From: Lasiosphaeris hirsuta
Taxonomy: Eukaryota; Ascomycota; Sordariomycetes; Sordariales; Lasiosphaeriaceae
Reading direction: 5' to 3'
Length of the DNA: 64,000 nt
Assembly (NCBI GenBank): GCA_030549175.1
Contig: JAUKUA010000007.1
Coordinates: forward strand, 124,001 to 188,000
Shown here: positions 1,418-63,292 of the stretch, one piece after another
Layout of the letters: each line of letters begins with the position of its first letter
How positions within the stretch are numbered: the stretch's first letter is position 1
The notes under the pieces: model-generated
The model's input: the letters and a program-made list of their open reading frames with translations, nothing else
Told to the model about the DNA's origin: nothing
Databases searched by the model: none
Made by a program: the position numbers and the translations under genes

Positions 1418-3277
1418 TCGACACTTGGACGGGAACCCCGACCTGATAAGGGACCATATCATCTCAAATCTGCCAGATATTTCGTGGATAATTCCATCAC
1501 TTCCAACACTTCCAGCGCTACCAGACGTCTTAGAGACGCTCGGGCTTCCACCCCCGCCACCACTCCCCTCATTCCCGGACATTTTCTCGATTTTTCGACC
1601 TGCAAATCTACCGACCGCGACTCCGACATCATATCCAACGCGCCCCGAACTCGCAAGACTTCCAACACCATCTCGACCGGCCAACCCTCGTCAACCTACC
1701 ACCCTCCCTCTCGAATCCCTCCCCGCCAACCCCCCTCGATCCACCACCACCACCAGACCACCCATCCCCTTCGGCCTAGTCCCCAACGCCGCCATGGTGC
1801 CCCAACCACGAGACGACATGGCCCTCGTCCCCCTCCAATCCTCCTCCACCACCACCACCGACGACGACGACAAGGCCTCACCCACCTTCCACCTCTCGGC
1901 CCCCCGCCCCCGCCTCCACTCGCGCCTCCTGGCCAAATCAAAGCAAACCCTCCGCCGCACCCAGCACCCCCTCAGCGTCCTCCTCCCACACCTCCACCTC
2001 CCGCTCGCCATCCTCGCCGGCTGCGCCCTAACAGGCGGGACGACGTACCTCGTCGCGCGGCACATTGTCGAGCGCCGCGCCGCGGCGTCGGTCGACCCCG
2101 ACCCAGCCACGTGGATCGCGCTCGCGCGCCGCGTCTATGATGCGTGCTACCTCGGGTGCGAGGGGTGTGTGGACGTCGGGTATGCGTGGGAGGCGTGTGC
2201 GCGCACGGCCGAGATGGCGGCGGTCGCGTCGGCGGGCGGGGAGGGGGGGATGGGCGGGTGTGATGCGAGGAGCATGTGGAGTTGGAAGGAGAGGTATCCC
2301 CTGCGGTGCTTGGAGGGGGTTGGGGGGGTGTTTAAAGCGCGGGCGCTGGAGCGGGAGAGGGACAAGGTGTACGTGCGGCTGCTGCTGGTTTTCTTGACCG
2401 TGTTGGCTGGCGTGTCGGGGGGGTGGGGGGTGTTTTGGGGCTGGGGGAGGTTGACGAGGGGGTGTGCTGCGCGGGTGGAGGAGTGGAGAAGGGAGGAGGA
2501 GGAGAGGAGGGAGGCCCGGGAGAGGATGGCCTGGCCCGGGCTTGTCGGGCTGCCGCACCGGTCCGAGGGGCGGCGGTCCGGCAAGGCGCCGTGGGTCGTG
2601 CGGCTCCTGGCCCTGCTCGGCCTTGGCCTCCCGGCGAGCGCGTGGCCTTGCGCCGTGGGCACCCCGTATACGGCGTATTTCGCCGACGCCGGCCGGAATG
2701 TTACCGGGGTTATTTACGGCGGGCTCGGCAGGTGCTACTGCCAGGAGCACTTCTACCTCGAGACGGTCACAGAAAATCATGGGAAAACCAGTTACGCAAT
2801 CCGCTACTACTACACGACCGAGATCTCGGCAATGCCCGTCGACTTGGTCGAGGACATGCTGCCGAGGGTGGAGCAGTGTGGCTTTTCCGTCTTGGCCCCC
2901 ACGAAGAAGTGCCGGCACCCAAGCGGGTAGCGAACCCGGGCATCGAGAGGAGGTGGTGGGTGACCATCAAGGTGAATGACTTTAATGTCACACGGGAGGA
3001 CGAGACGGATCCGGCAGTACTCTGTCTGTACGACATCGGGGGTACGCATTCAGTATGGTAACACCCGCGATGCCATTGACCAGGCCCGTTTCCCGCGTGG
3101 TGCCTGATGCTCGAGGGCTTTGCAAGGCTGAACGAGTTGACGAGAAGAGTTTGTTTCCAAGATACAATACTCCTAGCGTGGATCTTTTTCAGGAGGCACG
3201 TTTTTCAAACCAGGGAGAATTGCAACTTTTCTACAATCTCTAGGGCGAACGTTGAGCAAACGTTGAGCAAATGTTGA
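1418..3277 (+). CDS. Hypothetical multi-pass membrane protein, 5' end uncertain and frame broken near 2.9 kb
   Basis: I do not recognise this family. Frame 3 is open from 1335 to a TAG at 2930. Its first ATG in frame is at 1794, in a perfect GCCGCCATGG context, but the preceding codons (IRDHIISNLPDISWIIPSLP, then a Pro-rich part) look coding and follow a good acceptor at 1417, so an unseen 5' exon is possible. Hydrophobic segments are encoded near 1990-2055, 2370-2440 and 2595-2650, with a Cys-containing loop and a charged RREEEERREARER stretch between them. After 2930, frame 2 continues with coding-like sequence (WWVTIKVNDFNV, TREDETDPAVLCLYDIGG). It can join across a 42-nt GT..AG intron (3042-3083) to CLMLEGFARLNELTRR and DTILLAWIFFRRHVF, ending at TGA 3277. 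The switch needs either a ~77-nt intron (2876-2952) or a frameshift. Extent is inference. Confidence 0.5.
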
Positions 3278-3291
3278 GCAAGCGTTAAGCA
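3248..3291 (+). repeat. 11-bp tandem repeat, four copies
   Basis: Four copies of an 11-mer close to AACGTTGAGCA, with one to three changes per later copy. The repeat overlaps the proposed stop codon of the preceding gene (TGA at 3275-3277). Confidence 0.85.
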
Positions 3292-4190
3292 AAAGAATCA
3301 CACTGGCGGTAGATAGATAGTATGTGCCACAAGATATACAAGTCACAATGTCATACTATCACGGACTAACCCAAGCTCCCATTGCCCTAGCTGCCGATTT
3401 CCCCGTCCGAATCCTGCTTCGCGGCAGGACTGGGGAAAAGAAATTTGCCTGCTGATCCAATGAGGCAATCTTACCCTTTTTGTTCTCCGACGGACACTTA
3501 CATGAACAACGGCTGGCAGACGCCGCGTTTGGACCCTTCCTGTCGGCACATGGCCCGGGGGGACTGCTCTCTGATCATGTACGCTCATGCGCACCGTCCC
3601 TGTCCGCTACGCGCAAGACCGAGGGTACCCGGGCAGACACGACCAGACCTCCTGCAGTCAATGGTCTGATGCTTGGCCGTCCCAAAAGTCTTGTCAAAAA
3701 AAAAAAAAAAAAAAAGAGGAAACAACGGCTCCGAGATCGGAGCACTCACGACGGTTCGCACAATCCCGCGTGCCGGCTGCGACGGGTCTGGATGCGGGCG
3801 CATGTACGACGGCTGCTGTGTCCTACCAGACGTGGGAAGCCAATAGAATGTAATGTTACAGGAGCACGTCGTTACGTGCGTCTGTCCCCCCCCCCCCCCC
3901 CAAACAAATAGCCTGGAGTCCAGCCCGGGTTCACAATCTGCACGCTGTCACTGGCGAGAAAGAGAAACGGAGAGCAGGTTGAAAGCAGGCAGAAGAAATG
4001 CATTCCGTTGGGAACTCCGGCCGTCTAAGTCTACGCGTCTGGGCCCGCAGGTATCGATTCGATTAGGTCCCCCCTTATCCTCTGCCCCCTATCATCCGCC
4101 CCCTCTCCTCCGCCCCCTATCATCCGACCCCTATCCTCTACCCCCTATCATCCGCCCCCTATCATGCGCCCCCCTCTCCTTTACAGAAAA
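3292..4190. other. Intergenic, simple-sequence rich
   Basis: Contains a 20-base A run (3696-3715), a 16-base C run (3886-3901) and the pyrimidine-rich minisatellite listed separately. No gene supported. Confidence 0.6.
4070..4180 (+). repeat. C-rich minisatellite, unit about 14 bp
   Basis: Degenerate tandem array of CCCCCTATCATCCG-like units, with TATC/TCTC variants. It ends about 10 bp downstream of the stop codon of the minus-strand SnoaL-like gene, so it lies in that gene's 3' flank. Confidence 0.85.
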
Positions 4191-4978
4191 TCACGTCTGC
4201 TTCTCCCAGAACAGGTCAACCGGCTTCCCGTCGAGCCACTTCTCAATCTCGCCGTACATGCGCGTCCACAGCTCGTTGTTGTGCGGCGTGGGCAGGCTGA
4301 CGTCAATCTCGTAGCCCAGCCGGGCCTGGGCAGCACCGAGGTAGCGGTAGCCCTCGGGGTACTTGGCCAGCTCGTCGGGCGCGAACCGCGGGGCCGTATA
4401 CCCATCGACGGGCACGACCTTGTCCTTGTCGTAGAAGAGCTTGACGTACTTGGCCTTCCAGGCGCCCGTGTCGGCCTGCTTCTCGCAAAAGAAGATGAAG
4501 CGGCAGTCGCAGTCGACGTCGAACTGCGACTCGGGGAAGGTGAAGCGGTGCGTGATGGTCGCCTTCATCTTGCCCACGGCCCGGCCCTGGTCGGCCGCCA
4601 GCTCGGCCAGCGTGCCGCACTCGCGGTGCATGATGAACACGCCCGCCTCCTTGCCGGCCTTTGAGATGGCGATGAAGTCGTCGACGTGGCGCGGGCCGCT
4701 CCAGGCTGCACGCGCTTGTCAGGGGTGTGCCGTTCGGAGGGAAAGAGAGAAAAATACGTACTAGTCCACACGGTGCCGTCCGACGTGAACAGCGACCGGT
4801 AGTTGGCCCACTCCGAGGCATCGCGGTACACGGGCCAGCCCTTGCAGAGCTCCGACACGGCCAGGCGGTCGAGCAGCTCGGCCGTGGTGCCGTTGACGTG
4901 CGAGTAGCTCTTGGCGTGCGGGTCCAGCGGGGACGTCACGGTGGACGGGACCGGGACGAGCGGCGTGGTGTTTTCCAT
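4191..4978 (-). CDS. SnoaL-like domain protein (NTF2-fold, polyketide-cyclase/dehydratase type)
   Basis: Two exons, complement(4762..4978) and (4191..4705), with a 56-nt intron (GTACGT donor, CCCCTGAC branch, GTGCAG acceptor) that joins GTVWT to [12 protein letters not shown] in frame. The product is about 243 aa. The pattern of an early helix ([14 protein letters not shown]), a [22 protein letters not shown] stretch, then [32 protein letters not shown] and [14 protein letters not shown] is that of fungal SnoaL_4-type proteins, an NTF2-like fold used by hydratases, cyclases and many proteins without a known reaction. The chosen start, ATG at 4978, gives MENTTPLVP. An in-frame ATG at 5197 would add about 73 residues, mostly Thr/Ala encoded by a CAA/CAG-type repeat, which I read as 5' UTR. 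Substrate unknown; it may work near the P450 downstream, but nothing proves that. Confidence 0.8.
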
Positions 4979-5020
4979 AGTGGGCTTCTGCGAGTAGGGC
5001 GTGGGTGCTTGGGTTGTGGT

Positions 5021-5074
5021 TGCTGTTGTGGTTGTTGTTGTTGTTGTTGTTGTTGTTATTGTTGTTATTGTTGT

Positions 5075-5109
<35 letters not shown>

Positions 5110-5130
5110 TTGCTGCTGCTGTTGTTGCTG
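5021..5130 (+). repeat. (TTG)n/(CTG)n triplet repeat upstream of the SnoaL-like gene
   Basis: Mixed TTG, TTA and CTG triplets on the plus strand, i.e. CAA/CAG on the minus (gene) strand, just upstream of the preferred start codon. Probably in the 5' UTR. Confidence 0.85.
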
Positions 5131-5197
5131 GGGTCACAGTATCTGGCATCAGCACCGAGGCGAGGCCCCCTTTTATACCCGCGTCGTTGATGACCAT

Positions 5198-8100
5198 GTT
5201 GATGGTTTAGAAGCGGTCTGCACCTCGTGCGTGTCAGGGTTGGAAAGGGAGGAGGAGGAGGGATTGGGCTGGGGCTAGAATGACTTGTCGGCATGACAGG
5301 CCATATTCAGACAAAGGTCTTGGGGGAAATTGTGGGTTTTGTACCTGTCCGCTGGCAACCACGGCACAGGCGGGACCAAGCTCGCGTCATCGCCGAACCG
5401 GACGTCGTGCCACTGAGATTCCACGGTCCCACGGTGAGACGGGCGGCCCGCAGGGTGCATGGGCAAACACGGCATCATGCCTCGATTTCCCTGGACCCTT
5501 TCTGCCTTTTCCCCAGGGCCCCACGCCATGTTCAAACACAGTCATGAGTCTGCATTGCTCTTCCTTATTCCTCCGCCGGTGGGACCGACCCCGTGGGCCC
5601 CCTCAGGCCCCCCTCAGCTCCCCCCCCCTCCCCCTTTTTTTTTCCTTCCCAGGAAACGGGACAATTTTCATCGAATATTACCGGCGTCCGCGCCCAAGGT
5701 ATGACGAGTCAGTCTCTAGCAGGCCGACACGCATGTGTCGTGATTGTCGAGAGCAGGAACTGGAATCTGGAAGACGCTTGCGGTGAGCAGAGCCTCGCTG
5801 TCATTGGGTTGCATATGCATCGAGAAGCCGCAGGCGCACCGGAATGCCTGGGTGCGGCAGTGAGGTGCAGCGAGCTACAGCAGACCCGCAGCGGGCGTGC
5901 ATGCGAGCCCAGAGAGAGGCCCGGGTCAAGACGGAATCGGGCAAGGCCCGTCGCTGTCACTGGCACCTTACTGGCACCTCACTGGCACCAGACCTCTTGA
6001 CCGCTCGTCCCCAGTATCCCGCCGACTTTTTTTTTTTTTTTTTGGTTTCCTCTTATCAATAAGCAACCGCCGGGGACTGAGGCAGATCCAAACATGTCAG
6101 GTGTTGTGGACTCCAACCCGATTGGGCACCAACGAAGCCCCCTTCCATCCTCCATGGCCAGCCCCCATGGCCAGCGTCCCACGTCCTCCCACGCCAATGG
6201 GTCATGGGCCCCATGGGGACAACTCATCCCCGTTTCCCACATGGACCTGCGGCGTCCTCCATAAGGCGTCGCTTGGAAGGAGAAGAAAAAAAAAAAAAAG
6301 GGAAAAAAATTTTGTTACTGGGCACCCTGCTGCTGCCCTGCTGCTCAAGCTGCCTATCTCGGCAATGCCCTCGGTAAGGTGCGTACGTGCCTTACATGGA
6401 CATATATGTACAACTGAGGTGTGGGTCGAGGTAAAACCCAGAGGGTTGAGTCAACGACACGCAAACGGATACCGTCGGTGCGTGTCCCCTCCCCCAATGG
6501 CCTCGGGCCTTACAGAGGGCGTTCCCCAGCAGCCACTTGTGAGTGGCTGGAAAAGAAAAGCAGCAAAAAGGAATATGCCAACGTCATGATGAGCATCAGA
6601 CCACCACACATTGCACACATTGGCACCGTTGTGTCTGCCCGCTCTTATGCGCTTGTGGTTGCGATGACTGATGTATGTTTTGTACCTCTAGGGGGGTGAC
6701 AGGGACCCCCAAGGGGGAACCCGTCGCAAGGCGGTAAGCCCCCAAGGGGTAAATCATGGGGGGGGGGGGACCCGGGGTGCCAGCACGACCCACCTGAGAC
6801 CTGTTTTAGTCACCTTTCCACCGACTCTCCTCTGTTCACAATTCGAGTATCGAAATGAATACCTAACTGCATCACTGGATTCCCTGGATTCCTTGGATTC
6901 TCTGGACTCCCTGGATTCCCTGGACTCCCTAGACTCCCTGGACTTCCACGATTCCAACGACACCACCATGTCCTGAATCGAGCCGTGTTGCCATGTTGCG
7001 ACACAGACCCCAGTCTTGTTTTGGCCCAATAAGAGTGCCAGAATCGGCTTGGAATTGAGCAAATCGGACAATTCTTCGGTTTCTCGAGAATCCAGTGACA
7101 AGCCCAATCGAGTTCGTTTTATTTCCGACGACTCTCGTCAAATGCACGTCAACCAGGCGACTGCATGCAAACAAGCCCCTGAGGAAAGCAAAAGACATTT
7201 TCCTACATGCCCCTTCGCACACGGTTTACTCATCCCCTGCTTTACCCTGCGTACCTTGACAGGCGGGCAGATCGTCCATGTCTAGCTAGAGCGCTGAATG
7301 GAAACTGCTAGCGATGCTCGCTGCAGGTATTTATTGAGCTGATTGCTAGCGTCCGAAAACAACTGGTGACGAGGTTCCAAAATGGTCGCAAATGGCGTCA
7401 GAGATCCCTTGACTGCAAAGACAAAAACACCATGCAAATTATTCATGGCTAGTCTCGAGAGCCAAATAGGTAGGTATTGGCAATTATGCTCAGACAGAGT
7501 AAACTACGAACAGGCAAAATGTTCCCAATGGCAACTTGAAGCACTTTGGCGTCGACGGGCCCCCACCCCGGTATTTCTAACCCAAAGGCACAAAAAGCGG
7601 CTGCAGTGGCGATGCAAGCCGTTGCACAAAGCTTTTGCTGGCCAGACAGACACACAGAGTGAGATCTTGATTCTTTCGGCCCGTGCATGCATTGCGACTC
7701 TACAGCGTGGCCTCGTGTTTCTCAAAGGCCTTGCTGCCTGCCTTAGTGTCTCTCACGCCGGTCCAGTCAACACCGCCGTGCAAACGCCCTACAGATGCCA
7801 CAGAGCAGCAGGCGATATTAATAGTCAGATGAAGCCCCGGCCTCTTTTCCTTTCCCAAGGGCTGATGCACCTCTTTCTCATTTTTCTAGACATGTCGAAG
7901 ATGGTGGTCCTGCAACAAGTGGTTGCGGAGGTAGGTGGGCATGACTAAGACCCCCCCCCTTTTCGCGACAGCGCAGCTGTAAGCAGTCCCAGCCCAACGT
8001 GGAAGAGCACTAACACAAAATGGCCGTTACTGCTGACGATCTTGTTTACCTCTGGCAACCAACCGCCGTGGGCTAAACAAGCTGCCAGTCTCGAGGCTCG

Positions 8101-53451: not shown

Positions 53452-54694
53452 TCAATCTCGGTTCTCGGCAATGAGACTCTCCAGTGCAGCCTGAGGATAG
53501 GGGAGCACTTTGATGTCCTTGCCGCCGTTCTCCTTAAGCCACTCAGTATCTCTTTCCCGACCTTGGATCGCATACTGAGTAGCAATTGTGCCATCGTTCC
53601 CCCTTTGTCCATCTTTCATCTTCAGTAAGTAATCCTCGGTGATATCCTCCCAAGTGTCGAGCCCTACATAGCCAGAGTTAGGCTTCCCCGAAATTGAGCT
53701 AATGATAAGAGTAGCACGCTCCTTGTACACCCTCAAACGTTTCGGCAGCTTGTTGTTTCTGCGACAGTTCCAGATCATCTGCTTCCAGACGTCGCTTAGC
53801 CAGTGAAGATGCTGGATTTCTGGCTTAGTCAGGGACTGAATGGCGGCGTTCGGGATACGGAGGACAATCATTATCACCGACTCGCATTCGGTACGCCGCT
53901 TTGCGTAGCCTACGTAGTACTCGACGACTTTGAGATTCGGAGTGAAGTAATACAGAAAGGGGCCGTCGCTCGCCACCTCCGTGAGCTGCACCTGCCCCAC
54001 CTCGGCGACCTGTACCCGACCAACCTCGGCGACCTTCACCCGCCCCACCGCCTCTGGACGATCCCGGACATGATACTGCACGCTGGAGCTCCATCTCACG
54101 TTGCCGCGAGGCTCTCTGGATGTCTTGGAGCCCAGAATAGCACATCTTGATCGTATCCCGTACCTGATCTAGGCATATACAGTCAAGCCGGATATCGTTA
54201 AAAAAAAGTGTCTATGATCGCAGCCTGGGTTTTCAGGTTGACACCGTAGGCGCCGAGGGATATATACCACTTGGTGCCGCTCTCTCTAGTCGTGTCAGAT
54301 ATGCCGCTTCTTATCGCGTACCTAACGGTGAAGTCGAGAAAAGACACTTACAGGCCCCCGTCATCACAGTCAGCCTCTCTGCCGGGCCCGTCAGCGGGCT
54401 AGTTGGTCTACGCGCTCTAGATCTGATCGGCTTTGGGTATTGAGAGAATCTAACATGCGTGAGGGTTTCCCGCGGGATGAGGGCGATAGGGATCGTGGTA
54501 AATGCATCTTACATAGCCGACTCGTTCTAGGGGATGTTGAGGGGAATGTTGTAATGTTACTCGTCACTGGACCGGTTCAGCCGCCGCTTGTGAAGCCGGC
54601 GAGATCCTGCCGAGGTACCCTGACGAAGCAGGCCCTCAGCCTGGAGGTTGGACGCGTCCAGGGGGGCGAGGATGGTGCTCCTACTGCTCTCCAT
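53452..54694 (-). pseudogene. Decayed orphan gene with several frameshifts
   Basis: The longest intact piece, the 3' part (complement 53452 to about 54090), has no ATG. It reads FLYYFTPNLKVVEYYVGYAK, IQHLHWLSDVWKQMIWNCRR, LIISSISGKPNSGYVGLDTW and ends with a normal stop. Upstream, coding pieces lie in alternating frames: a start at ATG 54694 (MESSRSTILAPLDASNLQAE), then TGPVTSNITTFPSTSPRTSR, PTSPLTGPAERLTVMTGA, YAIRSGISDTTRESGTKWYI, SLGAYGVNLKTQAAIIDTFF and NDIRLDCICLDQVRDTIKMC. The last two are separated by a run of eight T that shifts the frame by one. A short internal repeat (GRVKVAEV, GRVQVAEV, GQVQLTEV) lies before the 3' part. I do not recognise the family; it looks like an accessory fungal protein. 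At least four frame breaks are needed. Confidence 0.6.
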
Positions 54695-55082
54695 CTTTGC
54701 GTGATGATTGAAATGATTGAAAGATGAAGAACGAAGCCGTGCTTGAGAGGCCAGATATTTATAGACGAGAACCTCGGCTGTAAAGGTTCTCGTTTCCGCT
54801 TCCCCCTTTGACAAAAACCAAAATGTTTGATCTGAACTCTTAGTGAGTCACACTGCCTAGCAGCCGTAAATGTTGTTGGAGATTGGAAGTTGATGGGATG
54901 AACAAACGCAAAGCTGGCAGGTGAGGGGCCGCTGAGCAAAAGGTTTTATTACCTAGACGGCAAAACGGTACATATTCGTGACAAGGTTTTTCCAGTTTGC
55001 CACGTGATTGCCTCCCTCCAGTCGACAGCCTAATCGACTGCATCGTCTTCTCCAAAAGACGTCTCCGAAAGGCGGAGGTACG
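54695..55082. other. Spacer between two pseudogenes
   Basis: Nothing recognised. The first 60 bases could be the former 5' leader of the decayed gene on the minus strand. Confidence 0.4.
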
Positions 55083-55620
55083 CTAGGCTCTCTCACTTTT
55101 TCCTAAAGAGGATAAAGTCCATACTCGGGAGCAAGCGCTCCACTGCTTGTTTGACAGCGCATGCTGTTGACCCAGATCTGGATGAGGACGCCGGGGATGG
55201 CGACGGTCTGGGGCAGCACGAAGGAACCGGGGCCCGAGACCTTGAGCTGGACGCACGCACGACTGGTAGAACTGGGCGCCGAGCACGCTGTAGGCCGAGT
55301 GCAGCGCGATGAGTTCCCGGCACAGGAGGTACTGGCCCGGGGCGAGGTAGGCCGGGACGGCGGCGTAGGCCTAGCCCTTGTTGGCGATCATGTTGTCAGC
55401 GCCCCACTTGCCCGTCGCCGGGTAGAACACACGTCCTCGGAGATCTTGAACCACTTGAGTCCTGTGGTTGCTGATGTCGCCGCGTTGTCCACCCGTGCTG
55501 TGTACGCCGAGATGGGCGGCCCCTTGTGCGACGCCGCGATCGGGTGGTGTTGGGGGGATAGCCCCACATTGAGCCCCCCCCTGCCGGGCCTGTGCCTTAA
55601 CGTATGCAAGGCACACCTAC
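55083..55620 (-). pseudogene. Decayed AA9 lytic polysaccharide monooxygenase (GH61)
   Basis: On the minus strand the text is typical of AA9: SHKGPPISAYTARVDNAATS and GLKWFKISEDV; then in another frame GKWGADNMIANKG, an in-frame TAG at 55371-55373, and AVPAYLAPGQYLLCRELIAL, HSAYSVLGAQFYQSCV. The HSAYSVLGAQFY piece keeps the H-x8-Q-x-Y active-site pattern. After SCV the frame is shifted by a GTGC duplication, after which VQLKVSGPGSFVLPQTVAIP and GVLIQIWV follow. The first part, with the N-terminal copper-binding His, is missing. AA9 enzymes are secreted copper oxidases that cleave cellulose. Two frameshifts, one stop and the missing 5' end make it a clear pseudogene. Confidence 0.85.
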
Positions 55621-56531
55621 ACTAGATAGCTGTTGCGGGCCAGAAAATTCCTGGCTCACAGCAACCTCGCAGAAGACCGTGCAGAACGGTGTCCAGATGG
55701 CAACCTAAAGTTCGTCAGGTTCTATGGAGTTGGTGTGCTTGTTTGTTCTTTTCGCTCCACTCTGACCTTGACTCGCCATCTCAATGACTTGCATGATCTA
55801 GCCCTCCGCCCGGCGGACATCGATGTTTTGTCGATAATTATGATGCCTTTTGGGCTATCGGACAAGATTGTCGACTTGGTTGTTCACTTTGGGTTGGTGA
55901 AGGGTATTGCCAAGGCTTCGCTGTTGTAGGTACCTTCCGACAGTGAAAATGTAGATGGAAATGCCAGTGCTTGATAAAGGTGAGAACCCCGGTGAAGGTG
56001 CTGGCCGAAATGTTAATGCGCTTCTGGATTTCGGGATGGCGACAGAAAGGTGGGATGCAGAGGGCAGCCTGATTGTACAATGCGAACGTCCAATGTTAGC
56101 ATTGTCCAAGTCGGGCCGAGATTCTTGCTTTTGGTGCAGGTTGCTGGAAAAAGGACGAGATGCCACAATGCACGATCCATCCCCCCTGTTAGCGCCTTGG
56201 CAATGGTGCACACGAGCCAACATTGAAAAAAGACCATTATAAGTTCTGGCAATTGTGATGCGGTGTCAGAATTACCCCCAAACATGAGGCTTCGTAATCA
56301 CGGCTAGATCAGGAAATAATCGCGAGCTAATCACCGTCAATGCTTATTGGGGCGGTCTAATCACGATATAATCGTAATTAGACGACCGCTCCGGGTTTAC
56401 TTACGTAATCAATCAGTCAATCCGAAATCCAGCGCCTATATTCAATTCTTTCCCCAAACACTAAACAACTCATAACACCGCGACCATGGGTGGTAACTAC
56501 TGTAAGTCCGTGGGGAAAGGGCAAGGGTGGG
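55621..56531. other. Spacer between LPMO relic and LINE relic
   Basis: No gene recognised. The stretch 56290-56400 is AT-richer and repeats TAATCACG/TAATCGC-like words, perhaps old repeat-derived DNA. Confidence 0.4.
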
Positions 56532-56831
56532 GTCCCATTTGACGGCGCAAAGAGCGAGTATATCCTCTTCACACCAAATAAAGGCTCGCGGCCGGATATC
56601 TTAGTCCAAGGGGTCGTCGCACCTCACAGATAGGCCCTATGGTGGCTAGGAGTATGGTTCGACCCCCTCCTCCACTTGAGAGCCCATGCCAAGGCAGTGA
56701 CGGCCAGGGGTAAGCCTACGGTAGCGCTCCTAGAGCGTATCTCGGGCAAAATCAAAGGCCTAGTGTTAAGGATCACAGAGCACTTGGGAATGGAGTCATG
56801 GAAGAGAGCAGCAAAACAGTTGATGAATTAA
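56532..56831 (+). mobile_element. Fragment of a LINE (non-LTR) reverse transcriptase
   Basis: One frame reads VPFDGAKSEYILFTPNKGSR, PDILVQGVVAPHR, a TAG at 56631, then ALWWLGVWFDPLLHLRAHAK and AVTARGKPTVALLERISGKI, to a TAA at 56831. The order K-x-E-x-I-L-F-T, then WLGVWFDPxLxxxxHxK, then a run of Ala/Lys/Leu is the region just after the catalytic part of the RT in Tad/I/Jockey-like fungal LINEs. No catalytic YADD box or endonuclease is present, so this is a small dead fragment. Confidence 0.7.
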
Positions 56832-56978
56832 TGTTGTCTAACTGGTCTGGAGAGTGCGAGAGGGCTTCTATTATAGGTGTGTGCGTCGGCTCGCATCGGC
56901 CTGTGGCCACGCGGCCTTCGGCAGTCCTAGTGGGGCCTATTAGCTACATCCTCGAATACGGGGTTGCCTTATAAGGCA

Positions 56979-57074
56979 CTGGGGAAGGTAGTCCTTGTTG
57001 GCTGTATCGCCCTTAGCTATCGCCCTTAGCCTTCGGGAATGGGATTCTAGGGGCTTGAGATGCCTAGCTTCCTC
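56979..57074 (+). repeat. Direct repeat, copy 1 (about 95 bp)
   Basis: Shares GGGGAA..GTAGTCCTTGTTGGCTGTA, then GGGAAT..GGATT.TAGGGGCT and TGAGATGCC.AGCTT with the copy at 57511-57600, with scattered differences and a small indel. Probably the 3' part of a LINE or another small element. Confidence 0.75.
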
Positions 57075-57510
57075 CCTTCTTCTCACCTTCCAGGAGCGCG
57101 GGGAGCCGCCATTCGAGAGACGGTTTTTGAGTCTTTGACTGCTCCTTCTGCGACTACGACAACGGGACGCGACCCGACTCACCATCGCCATCTAACGAGC
57201 TAGGCTCACTTTCCAGCGCGCGGGGGGCCGTGGTGGATAGGTTAGAAGAGGGGGTGGAGATCCGGATGAGTGACCCATCTGCCCGGACAGGATAGATGCG
57301 TGTGTCGGTTACCTGCGTGTGGTAGCTTATGGTGTAAAGCAGGGTAATCGGATTTTTCTGTGAAGTGTGGGAACCTCCCTATTATAGTATCGCTCCGCTG
57401 AGGACTGAAGGCTACCTGAAGCAGACACCCGGTTTGCCTGGTGAGCCCGAGGGCGCCTCTGCGGGGGAACCAGAGGTCGGGTCGATTAGATTGAATCTAT
57501 AATATTTATC
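57075..57510. other. Spacer between the two repeat copies
   Basis: No gene recognised. Confidence 0.4.
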
Positions 57511-57600
57511 CTGGGGGGAAAGCAGTCCTTGATGGCTGTACGCCCGACACCCACTCGTGGGAATTGGATTTTAGGGGCTTGAGATGCCCAGCTTTCCTCT
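57511..57600 (+). repeat. Direct repeat, copy 2, in the HET-S 5' region
   Basis: Second copy of the about 95-bp segment. It ends some 40 bp before the ATG of the HET-S homologue, so it probably supplies part of its promoter or leader. Confidence 0.75.
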
Positions 57601-57639
57601 ACTTGTATGTGAGACAAAACGATACAGGAAGAGTAAAAA

Positions 57640-58599
57640 ATGGCAGAAATCTTTGGCATCGACACCTCGGCGCTCAGCATCGCGGGCTTTTTCACCAACT
57701 GTGTCGACTGCTTCGAGTACATCCAGCTCGGCCGGCACTTTGGGCGGGATTTTGCAATATGCCAGCTCAAGCTAGACGTGGCCCGCGCCAGGCTGGGGCG
57801 GTGGGGGCAGGCGGCGCGGGTGCTGGAGGATCCCCGCTTTGCGTTACCCTTTTTAAGCGACGAAGGGGCTGACACATATGTAAAGATTGCGAAAAAGACG
57901 TTTGAGGAGATTGAGGGGTTGTTGATGGCGGCGAGAAGAAAGGCGGAAAAGTATGAGCTTTGCAATGGGTCAGACAAAAAGAAGATGGAGACTTTTGATG
58001 CGGGGAGGGATATGGATGGTGTGCGTGGTGGGTTGCATGAAAGATTGAAGAGGGTGGCGCGAAAGAAGCAGGATACCAAGAGCAGCGGAGGCGGAGGCGG
58101 AGGAGTGAAATTGTACAAGAAGGCGGCGTGGGCGCTGTATGAGGTCAAGGAGTTTGACAAGCTTGCGACGGAGGTGTTAGCGCTGCTTGACGAACTAGAA
58201 GAGCTTTGCTCCGTGCCAGAGGTGGAGTACAAGAAGCTGGTGGAGGTGGAAGTTGTTGAGCTGGGGACTGTCGAGGGTGGGGTCGAGGGTGGGGAGGGGG
58301 TGAAGGAGAAGGAGAGCTTGGAGGTGCTGAAGGGGGTGGCGGAGGGGATGGATGACGTCCTAGTCGATGCGGTCGTTAAGAGGTTGAGGATTGTCGATCC
58401 CGGTAGGGAAGACCGGAATTACGTCCAGCAGCTCAATGTCGGCGACACGGCCCAGGTGCAAGTCGGACACGAGTATGCCGAGACTGTCTTGCTTGCGGCG
58501 GGGGTCATGCCGAGTGGGGTGACGAACGAGGTGGATGTCGTCATGGCCAAGGGGTTGTCAAAGGTTCATGTTGGGAACAGGTTTGGCGTGCGTTTCTAG
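57640..58599 (+). CDS. het-S: HET-S homologue: HeLo cell-death domain plus prion-forming domain
   Basis: A 319-aa, intron-free frame; ATG 57640 has A at -3 and G at +4. Residues 1 to about 240 form a HeLo domain: hydrophobic start (IFGIDTSALSIAGFFTNC), VDCFEYIQLGRHFGRDFAIC, QLKLDVARARLGRWG, DPRF, KYEL, then AAWALYEVKEFDKLATEV and LLDELEEL. Position 33 is His, as in the killing HET-S form of Podospora; HET-s has Pro there. An acid (E90) aligns with the second functional residue, E86. Additions are a Gly run (150-155) and a Gly/Glu-rich linker (210-225). The C-terminus is a prion-forming domain with two pseudo-repeats: N260 to A280 (VQVGHEY core) and N296 to G316 (VHVGNRF core), 36 residues apart as in HET-s, ending F319. 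On amyloid templating such proteins expose the N-terminal helix, insert in the plasma membrane and kill the cell. Frame and motifs look functional. Confidence 0.93.
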   Translation: MAEIFGIDTSALSIAGFFTNCVDCFEYIQLGRHFGRDFAICQLKLDVARARLGRWGQAARVLEDPRFALPFLSDEGADTYVKIAKKTFEEIEGLLMAARRKAEKYELCNGSDKKKMETFDAGRDMDGVRGGLHERLKRVARKKQDTKSSGGGGGGVKLYKKAAWALYEVKEFDKLATEVLALLDELEELCSVPEVEYKKLVEVEVVELGTVEGGVEGGEGVKEKESLEVLKGVAEGMDDVLVDAVVKRLRIVDPGREDRNYVQQLNVGDTAQVQVGHEYAETVLLAAGVMPSGVTNEVDVVMAKGLSKVHVGNRFGVRF

Positions 58600-61500
58600 G
58601 GAGATGCGGATAATGACGGGTATAATCAGAAGGGCAAAATCTATCCCCAGATTTCCTACCAGTTCCATGCTACCATGCCACCCTTGTGAATAATACCCCA
58701 CAGGATAGGCAGAGTTCCAGCACCAGTGGGAGGTGAGGGCCGCTACGCAGGGCAGCCGCAATTCTCTTTTCAGTAAGTGAAACTGATGATAGAAAAAAAC
58801 CAGCACCAGTTGAAGACAGCAAGGTCCAAGTAAAGTAAGGAACAGAGTAGGCAGGTACATACAGCCATTACAAACATGCTCACGATACACCTCGACAACT
58901 CCCCTGAGACCCAAAAAGAGAGAACGCAAGAGAGGACACAAAGGCGAGGACCAATACTTCACGCCCTCTAAAACCACGCGGGTCTCCTACCTCGGAGCTC
59001 TGACTTCGTCTTCTTTTCAAGCAACGCAACCTAGTGGTTCCGTAGCTTTAAGCAGGGCAAGGAACCATGCAATCACAAATATCTTGAACTGTAGGAACTC
59101 GCCGTTTTCAAGTCATTGTCAACTTCAGTTTATTAGTACCTAATGGAGGTTTGCTGAGTCATGCAAACTTGAAGGACCTCATCCGATCAACCACCAGGTT
59201 GTAAGATAAGAGGCAAATCCCTTTTCTCCAGGCCGTGGGGAGTATTCATGCAACCTATGTCATGCCAGTGTTACCAGGTAAGGAGACTTGAGGAGCCTTC
59301 ACCAACCTCAGTATGGCTAGTACCTAGTTCCTGAGGCGGTGGAAGATGGGAATCAGAAAGGCTGAGATTGCGGGACTGAAGTCCTCTACCCAGGTACCTA
59401 GCTTCAGTACAGGAAGCATTTGTATAGAGGCAAGGTATGCCGGTTAGGCTATGTGCTGCCAATACAGTCGACAATTTTCACAACCCTTTTCGTCCATTCC
59501 GTGTAAACTCCATTGTGGGGAGGTCGCTCATCTCTTGTTCTTGGTGCAAAGTCAGATTTAAGTATGGATATCTTCGAGTAGTATCATCGCTATTCTAAGC
59601 GGACTCTGGATGTTTGCTAATTAATACAAAGTCTGCTGGCTACCAAGTGCCTGTACTTTCCTTGCCAGGCAGCTCATCGGCCACGTCAGTCACCCGAGTC
59701 TGCCTTGGCATTGTAATTCACAACCATGAGCTGGAAGTCGCATTATGTGAATAGGTTGCCCGGGTATCTACTACGACTCGTGAGGTTTGAGCAAAGTGAG
59801 TCCAAAGGTGAATGCACCTCTCAATCTCTTAGGAGAAACGTTGGCCGAGGATAAGATACCGGGGTTTCACGCTGCGGCTTTCATGAGATGGACATGTGAA
59901 GTTGTGGGAGTATATGGATGGCTCTTCATGTTCATCGCCATCCAACATCTTAGACTGCAGATGAAATAGTAGTGCATGTATGCGATGATAATAGTAGGTT
60001 CACCAGGACCTTGCTTCACAAACTAGACTAGATTTCCATCTAAACAGACGGATTATTAGTCGGCAACTAGGCAGACAGCTGATGTAAGTAAGAAAGGCGT
60101 GTGAGCACTTACTTATGTACCAAGTAAAGTCGATGTGTAACTAGAAAAGCGACTCCGAGCCTCCATTGACCAGCCACGATGCGAAGTCGGCACTAAACTC
60201 AGTACTTTTAGTTGACTGAACTGTGTGGCATGATTGTGTTAGTTAGTTTGGCCTTTGCCATCAACAACAAAGGTTCCGCGATGTTACGATGTTACGACTA
60301 GTGCACACCGTTGGCGGTCGTATGCCGGGGTTGGGTGCCTGCCATTTGTTGATGGTGCCCGGGGTGGTCGACGGGAAGAAAGGACTGTGGTCGGAAGGAC
60401 TGTGGCCGGAAGGACTGTGGCCGGAAGGACTGCGGCCGGACCGACTGGCACGCTTCAAGTTGCTGTGGGGATATAAGTCAGCAGACGGACCTTGCTATTC
60501 AACAATAAGAACCGCGCGGCGTAGTTGGCTAGTGTTTCATTTTGTGATCTTAGCTAACTCTCTAAACAGGTCCTTGGATGCTAGGGAAGGTTGGACAAAG
60601 CTTGGGTATTCCCCTCGTTTGGATTTCCCCCTACTGACAGGAGCAGATCTCGCATCATGGTAAAAACTTCCCGTTCTTCGAACAGAGGGTCTCACGGTGG
60701 TTCAGAAGGTACGCCGACATCTCCCGTTCGCTCCTAGCCAGCTGTGCCGCAATATTTTTTTGTGTGTTCTTTTGTTTTCATCACAACTTCAGGCCCACCC
60801 AGTTCAGACACATTCGCAGCCTCATCAGACACGCCGGCCAGCTCATCATGGCCCACAAGTTTCTGCACTTGGACCAAAACCGCAAACACGGCCCAAAAGC
60901 AAAAAGTGAAGCCAAAGATATCTCGCATTTGGCGGTATCGTGATACCGGCGTGGTGATTTGGGCCACCAGCACAATTCAGCGCAGCCAACTTGACCCAAC
61001 TCAACCCAATGCAGCCAACAACCAAGCAAAGCCCTACATTTGAAAGATGCTCGCGCAGCCTCTAATCTAGCACATCCGCTTGAAGTATTACATCATGCAT
61101 GACTGGGAGCCTACATTGAAGGGGCTGACTGCAATTCCCACATCAGTCGGCCAGCTTTGCATAATGACATATCAATCGCAGCCTTGAAAGACCTCGCGGG
61201 TTCTTTGTGTGCAGTAGTATATATCACCTCCTTGGGTTCATTGATCGACACGGCCTCGGAATTTGGACTCGAACTCTACCAACATGTGAAACCGTGGCGG
61301 GAATTAGGATATTGAGCTATCTGAAGCCCACGGACTACTCCGTAAAAACCCGGATTTTGATGTCGCAATTCAACTGCTGCGAGGAGTTGAGTTGTTGTCG
61401 TCGCAGGTGTTCAGCTTGTTGATATGGCCAATTGCTGAGCTGCCAGCGCAAGGCAAGACGTCAGTTTTCAGCCCTTGGCACTTGACCAGAAACTTGTTTG

Positions 61501-62213
61501 GGAAGCAAAAGCTGCAGCGGGGGTTACCGAGCCAATGGCCAGCGCTGGCGCCCAAACAGGCTAATTAGGCGAGACGCTCTTGATGCCGGGCCAGGGTTTG
61601 GAGTGGCTTGACCCGTGCGGGCCCCCTGACTTTTCCACGGCAACGCAGCAGTCGCAAAGCGCAGGCGCAGGCTGGTACGAGGTTACTCCGTACCAGCACA
61701 CCAACGGCAGAGCAACGACGTGGGCGCGCGGGCTGGACGACATTGAGGTTCCCCCTCCACTTGGCGCTCCGATACACACTCGCTCGCAAATCTCACAAAT
61801 GTATTGCACACCCTCGTTGTGTCCCTGTTGACCGTCCGACGCTGAGCCCGAAACGCACACGGTCAATTGGCAGGAGAAACGGGCGAGACGGGCGCAACGG
61901 GAAACACTGGGCCGCCAAACCGGGTCTACACATCAATACGAGACAGGTGATCTTGGCCTGCATTCCGCTGAGGCGACGGCATTCCTAGCCCGACAGCTCT
62001 TTTCCCCATCTCGTATTCCCACCACCGACGCCAGCGACCATTTTCCCTCCCGCAACCTCCCAAACAGCTGCCTCTTTCGCGAGCATCCGGACATCCCAAT
62101 CCGAACTCCCGTCCACCAACGTCCACAGCGCCCTCGACCCTCCCCTCGGGGCTCATCCATATCTAGGCCGCTCCCCGCCGGCGAGGCCCTCCCGGCCACC
62201 CCGACTCGCGACC
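58600..62213. other. Gene-poor spacer, HET-S 3' flank to Chs7 leader
   Basis: No gene supported in 3.6 kb. In particular no NLR-type domain or additional prion-like motif was found on either strand. Includes the 15-bp repeat at 60380. The last few hundred bases are C-rich and probably the chs7 leader. Confidence 0.55.
60380..60439 (+). repeat. 15-bp tandem repeat, four copies
   Basis: Four units of AAGGACTGTGGCCGG: unit 1 has T for C at one site, unit 4 has C for T. The units are exact in length. Confidence 0.95.
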
Positions 62214-63292
62214 ATGACGTTCGGCGACTTCATAGACCTCTGCCGCATGGCGCCGCTGCCGCTATGCTCGTCCATCGGCCCCATAACGTCGATTTCGGCG
62301 GGCGTCGGCATCGAGCCCGACTGCTTCGCCCGCAACATTGAGTTGGCCAACACCATCATCTTCCAGAGCGCCGCCAGCGCCATGCACATTGTGGCCCTCG
62401 TCATGACCGTCACTATGATTCTGCACGTGCGGGGGAAATTTACTGCTGTTGGTACGTTGTGTCACTCTCATCTGGGTTTGAGGAGAGACGGAAACACGGG
62501 GGCTGACCGCATGGCGCGCATCCCACAGGACGCAAGGAAATTACGACTTTCTTCTACATCTACATGCTGCTCACCTTCCTCTCGCTGTGCATCGACGCCG
62601 GCGTCATCCCCCCGCGCTCGACCCCGTACCCGTACTTCGTCGCGATCCAGGGCGGGCTCACCTCGTCCCTCGTCACCTGCCTGCTGATCAACGGCTTCGT
62701 GGGCTTCCAGCTGTACGAGGACGGCACGCCGCTGTCGCTGTGGATGCTGCGCCTGTGCTCGCTCGCCGCCTTCATCATCTCGTTCCTCGTTTCCCTCGCT
62801 ACCTTTATGTCGTGGGCCGGCCTGGGCCCGACCAACACGGTCGGCATCTTTGTCGTCTTATACCTGCTCAACGCCGTCCAGCTGTTTGTGTACGCCGTGC
62901 TGCAGATCCTGCTGGTCACGCGCACGCTCCAGGACCGGTGGCCGCTGGGAGACATTGCGTTTGGGCTCTTCTTCTTCATTGTCGGGCAGGTGATCCTGTA
63001 CGGCTTCAGTGCCACCATCTGCAGTGCCGTCAGCCACTACATGGACGGCCTGTTCTTCGCGACGACGTGCAACCTGCTGGCCGTCATGATGGTGTACAAG
63101 TACTGGGACTCGATCACGCGCGAGGACCTCGAGTTCTCGGTCGGCACCCGCATGAACAACTGGGAAGTCAAGGAGCTGCTGCCCGAGGAGGACCGCCGGG
63201 CGACCACGTACAACGACGAGCCCTATGCCCAGTCGAGCGCCTTCGACAACTCGTACGGGCCGAGCCCGAACCGGAGCTCGAGGTATACGTAG
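62214..63292 (+). CDS. chs7: Chitin synthase export chaperone Chs7
   Basis: Two exons, 62214-62451 and 62529-63292, with a 77-nt intron (GTACGT..CCACAG) in the conserved sequence KFTAVG/RKEITTFF; about 333 aa. The N-terminus MTFGDFIDLCRMAPLPLCSS, then GIEPDCFARNIELANTIIFQ, is the Chs7 signature. Seven or so hydrophobic segments follow (for example FFYIYMLLTFLSLCI, FIISFLVSLATFMSW, FGLFFFIVGQVILYG), then HYMDGLFFATTCNLLAVMMV and YKYWDSITREDLEFS. Chs7 is an ER membrane protein needed for folding and ER exit of chitin synthase III. The hydrophilic tail after residue 290 is normal. Length and all blocks fit the family, so the gene appears intact. ATG is in ACCATGA context. Confidence 0.95.

Follow-up and report, generated by a model that had tools for sequence, protein, structure and literature searches.

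A loop-less HET-S-type gene of Lasiosphaeris hirsuta, probably an intact cell-death executioner, and a decayed canonical-looking pair in the same genome

The stretch analyzed here (the window) covers 64,000 nucleotides of the fungus Lasiosphaeris hirsuta (Sordariales; contig C12:124001-188000). At 57640..58599 on its plus strand it carries a gene that resembles het-S of Podospora anserina. Does this gene encode a cell-death executioner that an amyloid seed can set off? The original prediction was that it does, and that the executioner is active and templatable. We find it likely that the gene is an intact HET-S-type death executioner, belonging to a known family and to a subtype without the C-terminal loop. 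The predicted family and architecture were borne out; the activity, which had been deduced from a histidine at position 33, was not. Passages of PMC12881547 hold nothing that contradicts this interpretation.

The gene is a single uninterrupted open frame encoding a protein of 319 amino acids (P0001), exactly as predicted in frame, coordinates, and length. A public L. hirsuta protein (P0002) is the product of the same gene. It lacks 13 residues, is otherwise identical, and was left out of the alignment of relatives (156 rows) for this reason. The 13 residues correspond exactly to a GT...AG stretch of 39 nt in the acidic Gly-rich linker (58270..58308; all features of the gene are on the plus strand) that the public model treats as an intron. 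We take this stretch to be coding, as five of the six nearest relatives in a printed set of 14 have Gly/acid-rich residues at its position; judged by these sequences, the public intron is probably a mis-annotation. The composite index of repeat-induced point mutation (RIP) is −0.72 for the gene and −0.61 for the whole window, and there is no RIP-like bias in the gene.

Both domains expected of a HET-S-type protein were recovered by profile searches, each above its cut-off. The HeLo domain occupies the N-terminus (residues 6–210, 57655..58269). The HET-s prion domain (PF11558) matches residues 259–316 with 48.9 bits, against a cut-off of 32.2; the significant profile match whose absence would have refuted the original prediction is thus present. 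A match to solved HET-s chains was also obtained (E 0.0045). The C-terminal region contains two repeats, r1 at residues 258–278 (58411..58473; strands 258–267 and 272–275) and r2 at residues 294–314 (58519..58581; strands 294–303 and 308–311). They score 26.1 and 33.1 bits with the r1 and r2 profiles, each of which includes the row of this protein. As predicted, N260 and N296 are spaced by 36 residues and each opens a motif N-x12-V-x-V-G-[HN]; this spacing is the commonest among the relatives (110/156 rows).

The repeats had also been said to align with each other. The BLOSUM62 sum of N260-A280 against N296-G316 is 21, and another pair within the protein scores 22. A sum of 21 was reached by 537 of 1000 shuffled proteins when any spacing of 21–59 was allowed, by 20 of 1000 when the spacing was preset to 36, and by none of 1000 shuffles of the tail 255–319 with the register fixed. 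The mutual alignment is thus at chance level with free spacing and above chance only with the spacing given. The assignment to the family rests on the PF11558 profile and on the match to the solved chains.

The repeats have features described for the HET-S type (PMC4518210). The hydrophobic motif positions 5, 8, 10, 16, and 18 hold V/V, L/V, V/A, V/V, and V/V in r1/r2, where r2 has no more than an Ala at position 10, and Gly is present at position 19 (the arch Gly) of both. Motif position 3 is Asn in each repeat (N260 and N296), in agreement with the residue rule for the HRAM1 class (PMC4518210); the class itself is defined by clustering. The C-terminal domain can be modeled as a two-rung solenoid like that of HET-s. 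A first Foldseek run on the whole model gave strong matches to HeLo entries only; in a second look, residues 259–319 of the model aligned with HET-s 225–285.

The protein shares with HET-S/HET-s of P. anserina (PDB IDs: 2wvo, 2wvn, 2wvq, 2rnm, and 2kj3) the HeLo domain and two 21-residue repeats placed 36 residues apart. It differs by the absence of the C-terminal aromatic loop, by Gln in place of Arg at motif position 15 of r1, by the lack of charge pairing at motif positions 6, 11, and 13, which form the salt bridges, by a Gly run in the HeLo domain and a longer acidic linker, and by having no gene for a NOD-like receptor (NLR) found beside it. The short tail follows r2 directly. It reads FGVRF and a stop (58582..58599), lacks the final Trp, and stops some four residues before the position of HET-s 289, as had been noticed in the original prediction. 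The Gly-rich aromatic loop is usual in this family and is missing in a fraction of the known homologues (PMC4055769). Two of these, Fo_CL52-2 and Nh_mpVI-1, are described there as having neither the loop nor a positive charge at motif position 15, as here.

We compared tails and repeats in 153 rows, after P0031, P0085, and P0113 were dropped (one of their repeats did not give 21 residues). A row was called short-tailed if fewer than 7 residues follow r2 or if it ends in FGV[RKQH][FY]. There are 23 short-tailed and 130 looped rows. Position 15 of r1 corresponds to R238 of HET-s and to position 13 in the numbering of the 2014 paper (PMC4055769). It holds Arg or Lys in 3/23 short-tailed rows versus 116/130 looped rows. 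An acid at this position opposite Arg or Lys in r2 occurs in 10/23 short-tailed rows versus one looped row out of 130 (P0079, which has a long, odd tail and a repeat region resembling that of short-tailed P0032). The L. hirsuta protein has Gln272 in r1 opposite Lys in r2, with no acid. There are exceptions to the association on both sides: short-tailed P0104, P0148, and P0153 keep Arg or Lys, and 14 looped rows do not have it. The nearest relatives (P0003-P0010, which include P0006 of Canariomyces notabilis and P0010 of Immersiella caudata) are 44–54% identical over the full length. They also end in FGV[RK][FY] (FGGR in P0009) and carry Gln or Asp at position 15 of r1 in 8/8 cases.

The rows are related and the independent events are few, and for this reason the association of tail and Arg cannot reach significance. 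A quick tree of the HeLo domain alone requires at least 7 changes of the tail and 15 changes at position 15 of r1, and leaves just two pairs that are independent and lie on branches with support. When 200 pairings were drawn, a mean of 1.7 of these 2 pairs lay in the expected direction. One clade (support 98) unites short-tailed P0036 and P0048, both with Glu/Lys, with looped P0041, which has Arg/Arg. From a pair of sequences, Daskalov and colleagues put forward in 2014 the idea that this Arg may contact or hold the loop (PMC4055769). Our counts, with their few independent events, agree with this proposal and broaden it into a wider pattern, in which a short tail appears to mark a subtype that usually lacks the Arg/Lys of the first repeat. 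In Podospora, the mutants F286A and W287A and the double mutant R238A/R274A are null when present in single copy, and single replacements of these Arg residues function normally. The subtype lacks a loop that is essential in Podospora and offers natural proteins on which the Arg–loop proposal can be tested.

The HeLo domain begins with a hydrophobic stretch (residues 4–22, 57649..57705), a candidate membrane segment with a mean Kyte–Doolittle value of 1.33 over 19 residues; the pLDDT confidence score of the model is below 50 at residues 1–7. The predicted His33 is present (codon 57736..57738), and H occurs at this position in 111/156 rows. Position 23 is Asp (codon 57706..57708), as in HET-s, where HET-S of P. 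anserina has Ala; D is found in 99/156 rows. Glu90 (codon 57907..57909) aligns with HET-S Glu86, a residue of the dimer interface (PMC3531502), and is conserved as E in 111/156 and D in 22/156 rows. The Gly run G150-G155 (58087..58104) and the acidic Gly-rich linker (about 203–224) had been singled out as differences worth study. Both are present, but they are largely common to the nearest relatives and not peculiar to this protein. In the printed set, five of the six nearest relatives have two or more inserted Gly (P0009 has one) and the other eight have none; the longer linker is likewise common to five of these six, and the other eight are without it.

We then looked for a receptor. Profile matches of the NACHT and NB-ARC type in the genome number at least 151 for PF24883, 66 for PF05729, and 18 for PF00931. 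Among the matches listed, none of the three falls within C12:124001-188000, and the closest is at C12:207905, about 25 kb further on. Compared with the canonical nwd2/het-S pair, the gene thus has no adjacent NLR among these matches and no Gly-rich aromatic loop. Adjacency of executioner and receptor is common but not systematic (98/155; PMC4518210). The gene is the sole PF11558 match above the cut-off in the genome. The only other one (L004; 17.2 bits, under the cut-off) was rejected as chance; by eye, its frame has an AAA-ATPase-like P-loop. There are 28 HeLo matches. An r1/r2 profile was run over 15 of their loci (about 1.5 kb on each side), the window, and a locus on contig C1 (L023), with L010 and L017 skipped because they duplicate the window gene and the decayed pair of L023. 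No repeats turned up in this set outside the window gene and L023.

L023 (C1:4463500-4473400) contains what appears to be a decayed, divergently arranged pair at 3245-4314. On the minus strand there is a HeLo piece (3628-3245) that is 68% identical to residues 12–137 of P0025, a looped homologue, and 43% identical to residues 12–107 of the window protein. The search (tblastn with three proteins) recovered no prion domain beside it. The only matches of note were of the HeLo type and covered at most residues 12–137, and the idea of a surviving prion domain was dropped. On the plus strand, about 0.23 kb from the first Met of the HeLo piece and facing away from it, an open stretch of 49 codons starts with ATG and M-S-T-N. 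It matches the r2 part of PF11558 with 14.3 bits, and a P-loop piece after it matches PF24883 with 13.6 bits; both scores are below the cut-offs. The composite RIP index of six 500-base pieces covering 2500-5500 is +0.29 to +0.76. We interpret L023 as a canonical pair of the looped type that decayed with RIP-like bias; its own tail was not detected, and the loop is suggested by the likeness of the HeLo piece. The layout is that of nwd2/het-S of Podospora, which are divergent and 0.6 kb apart (PMC4344463). In het-s strains of Podospora, nwd2 is also a pseudogene (PMC4344463). The species behind the loop-less sequences of the 2014 study have a looped paralogue as well (PMC4055769), whereas the only looped-type copy found in L. 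hirsuta is this relic. The genome thus combines a dead, canonical-looking receptor/executioner pair with an intact loop-less executioner gene on another contig. Literature searches, confined to HET-S/NWD2 pseudogenes, RIP, the C-terminal loop, and Lasiosphaeris HET-S, brought up no report of the L023 relic or of a loop-less Lasiosphaeris HET-S.

Two other features of L023 were noted. About 3 kb from the relic, on the minus strand at 6620-7480, there is another frame of the NACHT type (PF24883, 41.3 bits); it adjoins a 311-residue frame with a weak match to DUF7708, below the cut-off. Two adjoining frames at 5260-5781 on the plus strand look by eye like a remnant of a retrotransposon gag gene.

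By analogy with Podospora, the C-terminal domain would be unfolded at rest, and a templating amyloid whose repeat matches would convert it. The conversion would unsettle the HeLo domain and release the N-terminal segment, which would permeabilize the membrane of the protein's own cell. The solenoid would have to close in the absence of an aromatic loop at the C-terminus, and the Arg of r1, which may serve to hold this loop, would have been given up (Gln272). No receptor was found at the locus and only a relic remains of the canonical-looking pair; the trigger is therefore expected to be either an unlinked receptor or a seed of the protein itself.

An unlinked NLR with a matching N-terminal repeat is somewhat less likely than not. 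It would mean that adjacency alone was lost and is compatible with an intact loop-less executioner. The genome leaves room for it: the NACHT-type matches merge into at least 134 places, to which the 18 NB-ARC matches are added, and adjacency is not a rule in these systems, as the survey above indicates. On the other hand, all species analyzed in 2012 had adjacency (PMC3321046). No receptor-type repeat above noise was found upstream of 100 of the 134 NACHT-type places (for 20 of these only 700 bases were covered), where 34 stretches and the NB-ARC genes were not read. The best scores in these 100 stretches are 7.8 bits with the joint profile and 7.8 with r1, compared with 14.8 and 15.6 for the repeat of the relic; with the r2 profile the two cannot be told apart (7.5 versus 7.2, the relic being level with noise). 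PF17108 gave nothing over the cut-off; its three matches in the genome (E 2.05–3.31) were set aside as noise, and this profile is insensitive and missed the relic repeat too. The NACHT piece of the relic is also absent from the listed NACHT-type matches, so the receptor searches can miss things, and the orphan status of the gene is a lead, not a result. An orphan that outlived its receptor system would be independent of NLRs and fired only by amyloid of its own kind at cell fusion, with the loop and Arg clasp replaced by another closure of the core. We regard this version as improbable. If true, an immune effector would have been turned into a device for allorecognition.

Two other explanations concern the protein itself. 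It may be a leftover in slow decay, which has drifted since the receptor pair was lost and whose solenoid templates poorly. The protein is certainly divergent. Its end branch is the longest among the 153 rows in the HeLo-only tree (0.92; median 0.099), where the placement of a long row is unsure, and no other of the 156 rows deviates from the consensus in as many conserved columns (15/81; median 5). It has no opposite charges between the repeats at motif positions 4, 6, 7, 11, 12, 13, and 15, a state shared by 10 of 117 rows including itself. The Lys at position 6 of r1, opposite an Asp in r2 in 8/8 nearest relatives (P0003-P0010), is Gln263. Function may survive when just the three salt bridges are lost: in Podospora the triple mutant E234A/R236A/E265A still forms prions (6/500, wild type 13/600). 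The frame is open over its full length, its RIP index is negative, both domains exceed their cut-offs, and the arch Gly and the first Asn pair are retained; fast change is also compatible with diversifying selection on recognition genes. We consider slow decay unlikely. A non-killing prion protein like HET-s is very improbable, but D23 is its residue, and conversion of Podospora HET-s to HET-S takes at minimum both D23A and P33H (PMC3531502). The N-terminal stretch is also less hydrophobic than in four relatives (1.51–1.87). His33 is therefore no proof of toxicity: it stands here with Asp23 and is a common state in the family. Against a HET-s-like protein, the [Het-s] marker Pro33 is absent, D23+H33 is the commonest pair at these positions (63/156 rows), and homologues outside P. 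anserina have been classed as HET-S type from position 33 (PMC4055769).

Around the gene, six frames in the interval 53452-63289 were compared with Pfam, and a match was obtained only for the one at 62564-63289, a Chs7-type chitin synthase export chaperone (PF12271, 282.5 bits). A direct repeat of 36 nt (92% identical) lies upstream of the gene at 57035-57070 and 57559-57594. A short tandem array of direct repeats with 15 nt spacing is present at 60380-60454.
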